Assembly (NCBI GenBank): GCA_013178125.1
Contig: JABLXJ010000002.1
Span: 248,001 to 312,000, forward strand
Direction: 5' to 3'
Length of the DNA stretch: 64,000 nt
DNA from: Bacillota bacterium
GTDB taxonomy: Bacteria; Bacillota; SHA-98; Ch115; JABLXJ01
Part shown: one piece after another, positions 7,835 to 11,349 of the stretch
How positions within the stretch are numbered: the first letter of the stretch is position 1
Layout: every line of letters starts with the position of its first letter
Program-made: the position numbers and the translations under genes
Notes under the pieces: generated by a model
Databases searched by the model: none
The model's input: the letters and a program-made list of their open reading frames with translations, nothing else
Told to the model about the DNA's origin: nothing

Positions 7835-8030
7835 GCCGCATCCTACCCGATCTGTCTTGGGATACCAGCCTGTGGGTTGCGAATAATAATGAAGTAGTAT
7901 GGGGTATTATGAGATTCACAACTTGCAGGTTCCTGAATAACATGTAATGTGTCGCCTGTGCATAAACTAACCCAAAGCACATTCATGGGGGAGACCACGG
8001 GAGACCCATTCAGACAGAAGGGTAGTAGAT

Positions 8031-9623
8031 ATGACCGGGAAGATAACTAATATCTGGTCGAAAAGGCAGGTTGATGACGTATCGGGGCTGGCGACCTCCA
8101 GGGTTGTCATAGAGGCTACTTCGCCCGTAAAATGTGATATCCGGTGGAGGGACCCTCTCACGGCAGAGGTCATCTTGCCAGATTGCGAGCTTAACATGCC
8201 TGAGGGCATGATCAGGGTGAATGATGGCCTCCTGACCGATATCAGGGTCAGCCGGGCGGCGAGGCACGGTGTATTCATCCGGGTCGAGCTCGAACACCCG
8301 TCACAGTCTACCCTCCTGCAGAGTGAGCCGTTGCGCTCGCTTCCGGTGCGCCTGGTGATAGCATTTGACCGGGCGGCCATTAAGAGGATCCTGTCCGACA
8401 GGATTATTGTGATAGATCCCGGCCACGGTGGGATGGATGCTGGCGGCAGGGGGCCGGTGAATCTCCTTGAAAAGAACGTCGTACTCGATATCGCACGCTA
8501 CCTCTATAAGCACTTGAAAGAGGCTGGGGCGCGGCCTTTCATGACGCGCACCAGCGACGTGGGCATGACCCTGAAACAGCGGTTTGATCTTGCCGCCAGA
8601 TTCGGGGCTGAGGCTTTTATAAGCATACATACATATTCATCTGGAAACGCGGAGCTCGGCGGCCTCAGGACCCTTTACAATCCCTCGCGACCCGCGAGCG
8701 AGGAGCTTGCCATTCTTGTACATGATGCGGTCATCCAGAGGGCGGGCCTGAAAGATAGAGGTGTGGCGAGGGATGCGACCAGGCCCCCCGGCAGTCTCAT
8801 GAGCCCCATAATAACGGTGGAGGCTGTATGCATTTCCAACTGGGTGGAGGAGGGGCTGCTGCGCAGCCCGGTTTTCAAGGAGCGGGTTGCCGATGGGATC
8901 TTTAACGGTGTCAAACGCTTCTTCGCGGAGCGGGAACGCGGCGAATTGAGGGCGAGGGAACAGGTTGCAGGTGGAGCTGGCGGCGGCGCTGCGCGGGTGC
9001 GGATACCCATCCGGACTCACATAATAACGGAGAAGGATGATATCGTCGACGTCGTCAGGATGTATACCCGGGACATAGCAGAGCCCGGAGATTTTATTGG
9101 AATAGCCGAGAGCGTCGTTGCTATAGCCCAGGGCCGCGCAATTCTGCCTAAGACCGTCCGGCCGAGGCGGCTGGCCCGTTTCTTGAGCAAATTCCCCGGG
9201 AAAGATGGGAGCCTGGCTACCCCGCCGGCCATGCAGCTCGCCATAAATGAGGCCGGAGCCGTCCGGGTGCTGCTGGGCGCGGCCGCTGCCGCCCTGGGGA
9301 AGATGGTGGGCCGGAAAGGGGATTTCTACAGGGTTGCCGGCCGCTCCCTGGCTTTCATAGATGATATAGCGGGGACGATGCCCCCATACGATGAGCATGT
9401 CGTGCTCGGGCCCGCCCACCCCGAGGAGGTAGTAGCCAGGATAAAAAAGGAGACCGGCATCGACGTCTTTATAGCAGATGTGAACGACAAGGGCTGCGTC
9501 GACATCCTCGCAGCCTCGGATAGCATCGACCAGGTGGTGCTCAACCAATTGCTCTCGGACAATCCCTTCGGTAACGATGACCAGCAAACCCCGATCGTTG
9601 TCCTGAAACCCGTACGCCTCTAA
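8031..9623 (+). CDS. N-acetylmuramoyl-L-alanine amidase fused to a CofE-like (F420:glutamate ligase) domain
   Basis: A protein of 530 residues with three parts. Residues about 5-110 resemble an AMIN domain. Residues about 125-310 are an Amidase_3 zinc hydrolase cutting the MurNAc-L-Ala bond: IDPGHGGMDAGG (first zinc His), LLEKN (Glu), SIHTYSS (second His) and TVEAVCISN (catalytic Glu). Residues about 325-530 resemble the coenzyme F420-0:L-glutamate ligase family: KDDIVDVVRMYTRDIAEPGD, AESVVAIAQGRAI and the ending DNPFGNDDQQTPIVVL. The ATG follows AAGGG by 8 nt. The frame upstream is open only to 7971 and contains no start codon, so no signal peptide can be added; this is odd for a wall hydrolase. 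The gene takes the place downstream of recN where spoIVB is often found. A fused function in sporulation or wall turnover is inference. Confidence 0.8.
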   Translation: MTGKITNIWSKRQVDDVSGLATSRVVIEATSPVKCDIRWRDPLTAEVILPDCELNMPEGMIRVNDGLLTDIRVSRAARHGVFIRVELEHPSQSTLLQSEPLRSLPVRLVIAFDRAAIKRILSDRIIVIDPGHGGMDAGGRGPVNLLEKNVVLDIARYLYKHLKEAGARPFMTRTSDVGMTLKQRFDLAARFGAEAFISIHTYSSGNAELGGLRTLYNPSRPASEELAILVHDAVIQRAGLKDRGVARDATRPPGSLMSPIITVEAVCISNWVEEGLLRSPVFKERVADGIFNGVKRFFAERERGELRAREQVAGGAGGGAARVRIPIRTHIITEKDDIVDVVRMYTRDIAEPGDFIGIAESVVAIAQGRAILPKTVRPRRLARFLSKFPGKDGSLATPPAMQLAINEAGAVRVLLGAAAAALGKMVGRKGDFYRVAGRSLAFIDDIAGTMPPYDEHVVLGPAHPEEVVARIKKETGIDVFIADVNDKGCVDILAASDSIDQVVLNQLLSDNPFGNDDQQTPIVVLKPVRL

Positions 9624-9723
9624 TTTGGCAGTGATCATGTAGACCTAGCCGGCGCGCACCGATCTTTGCCGCTTTCAGAACTCATTTTATTTAGGACTTA
9701 TTATGTGGAGGGCGCACCCCTGC

Positions 9724-11349
9724 ATGCGGAAGCAATCATTCCTGCGCGGGGCCATGGTATTGACCGTGGCCGGGTTCATAAGCAAGGTGCTCGGCGCCAT
9801 CTACCTCGTCCCCCTCACCAGGCTCATCGGTGCAGAGGGCGTCGGGCTTTACCAGATGGCTTATCCCGTCTACGGCACAATGCTCGTTATATCAGTATCG
9901 GGCCTCCCCGTTGCTATCTCCAAGCTCGTCGCCGAACGTATCGCTCACGGCGATCCCGGGGGGGCGGCAAGGGTTTTCAGGATTGCAACGGTTATCTTGG
10001 TCGCCGTTGGTGCCATCCTGTCGTATGCGCTTTTTGCCGGGGCGAGGTTTTTGGCCACGAGGGTGCTCGGCGACCCCCGGTCCTACTATTCGATAAGGGC
10101 CATCTCCCCGGCGATCGTGCTTGTAGCCTCCATGTCAGCATTGCGTGGCTACTTCCAGGGGCTGCAGACGATGACCCCGACAGCGGCCTCGCAGATAATC
10201 GAACAGGTCGCCAGGGTTATTACCGCCCTCCTGCTGGCATATATGCTGCTTCCGAGCGGCGTGGAGTTCTCGGCGGCCGGGTCTGCTTTCGGGGCGGTTA
10301 CTGGGGCTCTCGCGGGGCTTATGTTGCTTATCGTGATCTACTTCAGGGAGCGGGGGGTCCTGGTGAGCGCGGCGGGGGCGGCAGGCGCGGCGGACGAGAC
10401 GGGCGGCACCTCCGCCCTGAGCCTGCTCAGGGAGATCGTGGCGCTCGCGCTGCCCGTGACTATTGCCTCGCTCGTCGTGCCGCTGACGGACCTTACAAAC
10501 GCGGCTATAGTCCCTGCAAGGCTGAGGGTGGCAGGGTTCAATATCCCCGAGGCAACCAGGCTTTACGGCCAATTCGCAGTGATGGCGATGAGCCTTGTGG
10601 GGCTCCCGACCGTGATCACCACGGCCTTTGCCACGAGCCTGGTCCCATCTATATCAGCGGCGTGGGCCACTGGAAATCGAAAGCTCGTGAGCGAGCGTAT
10701 CCAGGAGGCGATGAGGTTAACCATCTTAATAGGGGTGCCATCTTTTGTGGGGCTTCGCATCCTGGCGAGGCAGATATGCGGCATGCTGTTTGCCTGTCCC
10801 GAGGCGGGGGAACCGCTTACCATCCTCTCGATAGGGACCTTATTCCTGTGTGTCCAGCAGACATCGTCTGGCATCCTTCAAGGCCTCGGTCGAACGCTGG
10901 TCCCCGTCCGGAGCTTGCTTGCTGGGGCTGCCGTTGGGGCATCGCTTAATTTTGTTTTCACAGCCGTGCCCGACCTTGGAATACGGGGAGCGGCCCTGGG
11001 GACGGCTCTGGGGTTTATGGCTGCCGGCGTCCTGAACTTCGCGGGGGTCTGGGTTTTTGATCGGGCAAGGGTTGGCTCGAGCGCGGCCAAAGCCGTATTC
11101 AAAGCAGCTCTTGCCGCGCTCGCCATGGGGGTAGGTGTGAGGCTGACTTACCACCGGATTGTCCAGGCTACGTTCAGCAATTCGCTGGCGACGGTTGCGG
11201 CCATAGCGGCCGGCGCGTTGACTTATGGCGTGATCCTGATCCTGCTCGGCGAGCTTACGCCGAGGGAGCTTCGCCTCATCCCCGTCATCGGCTCTGGACT
11301 CGCCCGGCTCGTCGGCGCCATGCACGGCACGCATATCCAGCGTAAATAG
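9724..11349 (+). CDS. spoVB: Stage V sporulation protein B-like flippase (MOP/MATE superfamily)
   Basis: A polytopic membrane protein of about 541 residues with 13-14 hydrophobic segments. The N-terminal FLRGAMVLTVAGFISKVLGA and LYQMAYPVYGTMLVISVSGL are typical of SpoVB/MurJ-like lipid II or polysaccharide flippases. SpoVB is needed for spore cortex synthesis, with a lipid-linked precursor as likely substrate. The ATG at 9724 is preferred over 9703 because GGAGGG ends 11 nt upstream of it. A long loop between helices near residue 220 carries Ala/Gly residues. It ends 8 nt before the convergent prs gene, with no obvious terminator between them. Confidence 0.85.
   Translation: MRKQSFLRGAMVLTVAGFISKVLGAIYLVPLTRLIGAEGVGLYQMAYPVYGTMLVISVSGLPVAISKLVAERIAHGDPGGAARVFRIATVILVAVGAILSYALFAGARFLATRVLGDPRSYYSIRAISPAIVLVASMSALRGYFQGLQTMTPTAASQIIEQVARVITALLLAYMLLPSGVEFSAAGSAFGAVTGALAGLMLLIVIYFRERGVLVSAAGAAGAADETGGTSALSLLREIVALALPVTIASLVVPLTDLTNAAIVPARLRVAGFNIPEATRLYGQFAVMAMSLVGLPTVITTAFATSLVPSISAAWATGNRKLVSERIQEAMRLTILIGVPSFVGLRILARQICGMLFACPEAGEPLTILSIGTLFLCVQQTSSGILQGLGRTLVPVRSLLAGAAVGASLNFVFTAVPDLGIRGAALGTALGFMAAGVLNFAGVWVFDRARVGSSAAKAVFKAALAALAMGVGVRLTYHRIVQATFSNSLATVAAIAAGALTYGVILILLGELTPRELRLIPVIGSGLARLVGAMHGTHIQRK

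Follow-up and report, generated by a model that had tools for sequence, protein, structure and literature searches.

The question raised by this locus is what a peptidoglycan amidase with no export signal would do when it is joined to a domain of the coenzyme F420 ligase family. The gene lies in a stretch of 64,000 nucleotides from a Bacillota bacterium, hereafter the window, and its features are collected with those of its surroundings in Table 1. In the Pfam search, PF01520 (Amidase_3) matches residues 126-295 over profile positions 1-173 of 174 (E 6.3e-36, 124.5 bits) and PF01996 (F420_ligase) matches residues 327-474 over profile positions 2-133 of 218 (E 3.8e-8, 33.5 bits, gathering cutoff 25); no Pfam match was obtained for the AMIN-like part (residues 1-113). 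The AlphaFold model, computed from an 80-row alignment, has a mean pLDDT of 93 and a pTM of 0.64, and as a whole it matches amidases at Z up to 28, the AMIN domain of PilQ at 11.9, and CofE (2phn) at 15.0. The linker between the two halves (residues 303-321) differs in length from fusion to fusion. The conserved block upstream of the gene contains CATAAACTA, which we take to resemble the -10 element of a sporulation sigma factor.

Table 1. Coordinates (window positions) of the fused gene, its domains and motifs, and adjoining features.
Feature	Position	Strand	Basis or remark
Fused gene, AMIN-like + Amidase_3 + CofE-like	8031..9623	+	530 aa, ATG start, leaderless; ORF, Pfam, AlphaFold
AMIN-like N-terminal beta domain, residues 1-113	8031..8369	+	AlphaFold; matches PilQ AMIN (Z 11.9) and AmiC over 1-299
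Amidase_3 catalytic domain, residues 124-302 (121-302 by structure comparison)	8400..8936	+	PF01520; Z ~28 to CwlV, AmiC2, C. difficile 630 amidase
His132 (IDPGHGG)	8424..8426	+	Zinc ligand by homology
Glu147 (LLEKN)	8469..8471	+	Zinc ligand by homology
His200 (SIHTYSS)	8628..8630	+	Zinc ligand by homology
Glu264 (TVEAV)	8820..8822	+	Catalytic Glu by homology
Interdomain helix end and flexible linker, residues 303-321	8937..8993	+	pLDDT <50 at 315-318
CofE-fold (F420_ligase-like) domain, residues 322-530	8994..9620	+	PF01996 above cutoff; CofE fold; hhalign
IDD motif, Asp444-Asp445	9360..9365	+	79/79 sequences
DVND motif, Asp483-Val-Asn485-Asp486	9477..9488	+	D483, N485 79/79; D486 77/79; hhalign-aligned with CofE TDTN
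NPFGNDDQQTP motif (Asn511, Asn515, Gln519, Thr520, Pro521)	9561..9593	+	N511, P512, G514, N515, T520, P521 79/79; Q519 77
Possible promoter block, shared with same-genus relative	7935..7974	+	Sequence conservation; assignment putative
SpoVB-like MOP-family flippase gene, directly downstream	9703..11349	+	TIGR02900 357.8 bits (cutoff 372.3, just under); PF01943

A preliminary description of the locus, made from the sequence, had proposed that the Amidase_3 zinc site is intact, and all four residues (H132, E147, H200 and E264) are indeed present. In its order of AMIN followed by Amidase_3, and in these catalytic residues, the amidase half agrees with the AmiC-type amidases. AmiC and other amidases of this architecture are exported, whereas the window protein is leaderless and continues into a ligase-like domain. 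The absence of any start codon that would permit a signal peptide, also claimed at the outset, is borne out by an in-frame stop about 20 codons upstream of the ATG with no hydrophobic stretch between them. Moreover, partner amidases in other genomes start at about the same point (motif ITNIW/LTNL), and no convincing leader was found in those that were read, so the missing leader is a trait of the family and not a misread start. The sporulation amidases CwlC and CwlD share the Amidase_3 fold, and CwlD-like genes lie near some loci of the family, but the family differs from them in its extra CofE-like domain and in catalytic loss in sister lineages; against the CwlD equivalog TIGR02883 the window protein scores 85.8 bits, under the cutoff of 221.55.

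The last 200 or so residues had been likened to CofE, a resemblance upheld by the above-cutoff PF01996 match and by the predicted structure. When the C-terminal domain was folded alone and compared with the solved folds of the PDB, CofE was the sole match, at Z 13.8, and the next, unrelated row stood at 4.4; hhalign aligned the domain with CofE at a probability of 96.6 over 188 columns. Since a sequence profile of the domain searched against PDB sequences gave just weak CofE matches (E ~0.2), the assignment of the fold rests on the fold comparison. Archaeoglobus fulgidus CofE (2PHN, 7ULD; PF01996) is alike in fold (Z 13.8-15.0), in the Asp-Asn pair of its TDTN motif and in the order of elements, whereas identity to the window domain is about 19%, and in the stretch running from the conserved Asp to the last Gly motif the window domain has about 26 residues fewer. 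Scores against the CofE equivalogs of NCBIfam fall far under their cutoffs (TIGR01916, 15.1 against 180.65 bits; NF009809, 13-15.3 against 274), and the domain is therefore CofE-like and not CofE. In 79 C-domain sequences, taken from the best 80 of at least 522 relatives, D354, Q367, R369, S394, D444, D445, D483, N485, N511, N515 and T520 are invariant, and E360, D486 and Q519 are kept in 77 or 78. The IDD motif (D444/D445) is a putative counterpart of CofE Asp109, a pairing made by motif only, as hhalign leaves it in a gap. The full CofE segment RRG..AIG..G..D..GR, which follows the TDT motif, was not found in any family row, all being shorter here, and in the hhalign alignment the region after DVND that holds this segment in CofE is the one reduced by about 26 residues. 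CofE contacts F420 through a domain-swapped hairpin (PMC10861534), to which the shortened stretch probably corresponds, and with one CofE segment shortened the geometry of the active site may differ from that of CofE.

The simplest account of such a domain would be a true F420-0 gamma-glutamyl ligase to which an amidase has been fused by chance, and the PF01996 match and the CofE fold are what it would predict. The preliminary description saw no F420 biosynthesis gene in view, which holds within the 64-kb window, and the search of the window's genome found no CofC, no CofD match other than YvcK, and CofH matches that were all below cutoff. The genome is thus without the F420 pathway in which CofE acts, and the domain is paired with an amidase homologue instead. 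Across the phylum, canonical CofE is rare, occurring in a handful of 299 genomes, as against 133 of the 299 with the CofE-like profile. Together with the low equivalog scores and the shortened RRG..AIG..G region, this leaves the account with scarcely any probability, and a role in F420 synthesis was rejected on genome content (CofC, CofD, CofH) and CofE equivalog scores. Separately, a canonical CofE-type gene was noticed on another contig of the window genome (L001; G000:C20:5855-6748), likewise without the pathway.

Whether the two halves belong together was examined in relatives. A scan of named genomes gave at least 522, of which the best 80 were kept as loci; being the best scorers, these are biased to close kin and are not phylogenetically independent. 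Among them, an amidase homologue is fused to the CofE-like part, adjacent to it or within 5 kb in 71 of the 80: fused in 10, adjacent on the same strand in 35, adjacent and divergent in 12, and within 5 kb in 14, with none in the locus DNA examined in the remaining nine. In the 35 same-strand loci, the amidase homologue is the gene directly upstream, and a gap of about 40 nt typically separates it from the matched CofE-like segment. The fusion itself, the central claim of the preliminary description, is real and conserved across copies from the same class (L049, L050, L069, L077, L081, L093, L096, L101), and an intact fusion also occurs in Thermanaeromonas (L070). The alternative raised there, that homologues would encode the two parts as separate genes and that a frameshift had joined them here, was half right: outside the window's class the C-terminal part is mostly stand-alone, and no frameshift exists at this locus. 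A frameshift or assembly artefact was rejected, the same-class copies read being intact fusions. As the fusions sit at two places on the C-domain tree, in the window's class and in Thermanaeromonas, at least two fusion events, or a reversal, must have taken place. In a limited full-text literature search, we found no relevant report of the pairing.

The amidase and the CofE-like ligase are not obligate partners, because nine of the 80 loci show no amidase in the locus DNA examined, and six of these nine (L121-L126) have an apparent membrane protein of about 170-200 aa instead, either as the upstream neighbour or as the fused N-terminal part. No Pfam match was obtained for this protein in the copies tested, and it apparently takes the place of the amidase in those loci. 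Copies of about 170-190 aa, directly upstream of or fused to the CofE-like part, were noted at L122:4601-5107, L124:2363-2875, L036:8046-8588 and L121:2306-3505. Two further groups came to light on the side: a second family of CofE-like paralogues, with the motif DNPLGQ, situated between gpr (germination protease) and spoIIP (L047:6663-9442, Pfam checked), and numerous open frames (L154-L171), each about 400 aa long, that begin with a weak likeness to the N-terminus of CofE and may make up a third family related to CofE within Bacillota.

Within the same best 80 of at least 522 relatives, 56 of 72 partner amidases retain the whole catalytic tetrad and 16 have lost it, and the state of the site changes at least four times on the tree (one fragmentary row left out). 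Seen beside the near-invariant residues of the 79 C-domain sequences, this loss makes the CofE-like half seem, by sequence conservation, to be under tighter selection than amidase catalysis. Apparent pseudo-amidases, their zinc ligands lost, adjoin an intact CofE-like gene at L100, L105, L108, L113, L114, L115, L118, L119 and L120. Such degeneration has a parallel in mycobacterial CwlM, which the available portions of two reports describe as a cytoplasmic Amidase_3 homologue without a secretion signal that activates MurA and binds MurJ, with the active site intact or degenerate among its homologues (PMC4946905, PMC6180346). A purely regulatory role can be drawn from this precedent, in which the amidase-homologue half would sense cytoplasmic precursors or muropeptides and control one of the Mur enzymes or a lipid II flippase; the CofE-like half would be a nucleotide or metabolite sensor that ligates nothing. 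The missing leader, the repeated loss of the amidase site and the adjoining flippase genes (SpoVB-like, Amj, MurJ) fit such a role, but the near-invariant Asp, Asn and Gln motifs of the CofE-like domain are more than simple sensing should require, and the 56 partners with all four amidase residues include the window protein, so that we see regulation as possible but rather unlikely. The likeness to CwlM, compared by description only and from those portions of the reports, lies in a leaderless amidase homologue with an intact or degenerate site. As they describe it, CwlM is tied to precursor synthesis and the lipid II flippase, whereas here flippases are known as gene neighbours only; they mention no CofE-like domain in CwlM, and the window protein has an AMIN-like N-terminal domain and an unrelated partner.

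Among the 299 genomes, SpoIVA is found in 257 and the CofE-like protein in 133. The window genome has SpoIVA, and links to the spore include the SpoVB-like gene directly downstream in the window, and YhcN/YlaJ and CwlD-like neighbours at other loci. CwlC, a sporulation lysin, is itself a leaderless amidase, and the window protein, with its intact amidase site, could likewise reach the wall at mother-cell lysis or through a holin, the CofE-like domain being accessory. This is distinctly unlikely, as the loss of catalytic residues in whole clades is unexpected for a lysin, the motifs of the supposed accessory domain are near-invariant, and diderm relatives without SpoIVA retain the CofE-like protein, with the membrane protein replacing the amidase. 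In two families, f31 and f61, ten genomes combine a strong CofE-like match with the absence of SpoIVA, and all ten have LpxC. A strict sporulation factor was rejected on this evidence; sporulation is therefore not required. Of the remaining genomes with strong CofE-like matches, those inspected by eye do have SpoIVA, and the protein may therefore have a spore role within the monoderms. In the diderm genomes, a glutamate-racemase-like gene precedes the pair of membrane protein and CofE-like genes in most loci read (one Pfam-checked).

Gene neighbourhoods, which are association only and may reflect common regulation and not common chemistry, repeatedly include an arginine decarboxylase: among the best 80 of at least 522 relatives, 33 loci have one within 500 bp, 45 have one within 3 kb, and 33 have none in the locus DNA. 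Two unrelated families are involved, the pyruvoyl-type PvlArgDC and the PLP-type OKR_DC_1 (Pfam), and the type of neighbour changes about 12 times on the tree. No decarboxylase lies beside the window's own locus; one PLP Orn/Lys/Arg decarboxylase is encoded on another contig of the genome. Recurrent envelope neighbours, named by Pfam or NCBIfam where tested and otherwise by eye, are Amj, L,D-transpeptidase (YkuD), DacF-like peptidases, CwlD-like amidases and YhcN/YlaJ, joined by MurJ, Ddl, GatD-like, MurI-like racemase, glutamine synthetase and, read by eye, MurT, and in the window's class the SpoVB-like gene adjoins the fusion. This context supports the link to peptidoglycan that had been suggested at first. 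A folylpolyglutamate-type ligase has a model in CT611, a CofE homologue of Chlamydia that replaces FolC in organisms not making F420 (PMC1971073), and folate-pathway genes (by eye) do lie just past the divergent amidase gene of L105. They adjoin only in the locus type of L100 and L105, however, in L041 a CofE-like paralogue has a FolC-like gene (by eye) about 5 kb away, and the link with the amidase would be left unexplained. The folate operon context of CT611 also differs from the envelope and arginine-decarboxylase context seen here, which makes a folate role very unlikely.

The bond on which Amidase_3 enzymes act is a lactyl amide, that of MurNAc-L-Ala. CofE likewise works at a lactyl group, GTP activating the carboxylate before the amine is added (PMC10861534). 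By analogy, a cytoplasmic pair acting on such a lactyl bond is chemically coherent, and because of this coherence, and of the CwlM precedent for a leaderless amidase homologue, we favour a cytoplasmic enzyme of peptidoglycan precursors or muropeptides, fused from two proteins that were already a working pair, a tentative reading that falls a little short of probable. As we infer its substrate, catalysis, amine and order of events, the CofE-like half would be the enzyme, using a nucleoside triphosphate and a divalent metal to activate a carboxylate for linkage to an amine; CofE carries out this reaction on F420-0, at its lactyl carboxylate, and the substrate here would be another. The AMIN and Amidase_3 part would dock by recognizing the substrate on its MurNAc-lactyl-peptide side. 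With an intact zinc site, as in the window protein, it could perhaps also cleave the MurNAc-lactyl amide; without one it would be a binding or regulatory subunit only, like the cytoplasmic CwlM. For the amine, the most likely candidates would be glutamate and the products of amino acid decarboxylation, agmatine or a diamine, since arginine decarboxylases, and elsewhere glutamate racemase or glutamine synthetase, recur as neighbours.

A more specific form of this proposal concerns the polyamine-modified peptidoglycan of Negativicutes, long known from the work of Kamio and others as related in the available parts of two later papers, which name no enzyme attaching the polyamine (PMC10628300, PMC12826042). 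A limited literature search for cadaverine lipid intermediates found none. The CofE-like protein could be an amide ligase that places agmatine or a diamine from the adjoining arginine or ornithine/lysine decarboxylase, or glutamate, onto a carboxylate of the MurNAc-peptide precursor ahead of flipping; the leaderless amidase homologue would serve for substrate docking or editing, and in diderms it could be the missing polyamine-peptidoglycan enzyme; in this full form the proposal is doubtful.

Genes of this family are likely annotated as F420 ligases by their Pfam match in organisms without the F420 pathway, while the conserved pair and the two separate fusions tie the family to the cell wall. 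Across Bacillota the pair recurs as neighbours or fusions, in many cases close to cell-wall genes and an arginine decarboxylase, and this association suggests an as yet undescribed step, in the cytoplasm, of the metabolism of cell-wall precursors. The family gives a concrete candidate for a step that would modify or control peptidoglycan in the cytoplasm of Bacillota, both spore formers and diderms, and it makes the question of the polyamine-attachment enzyme testable.
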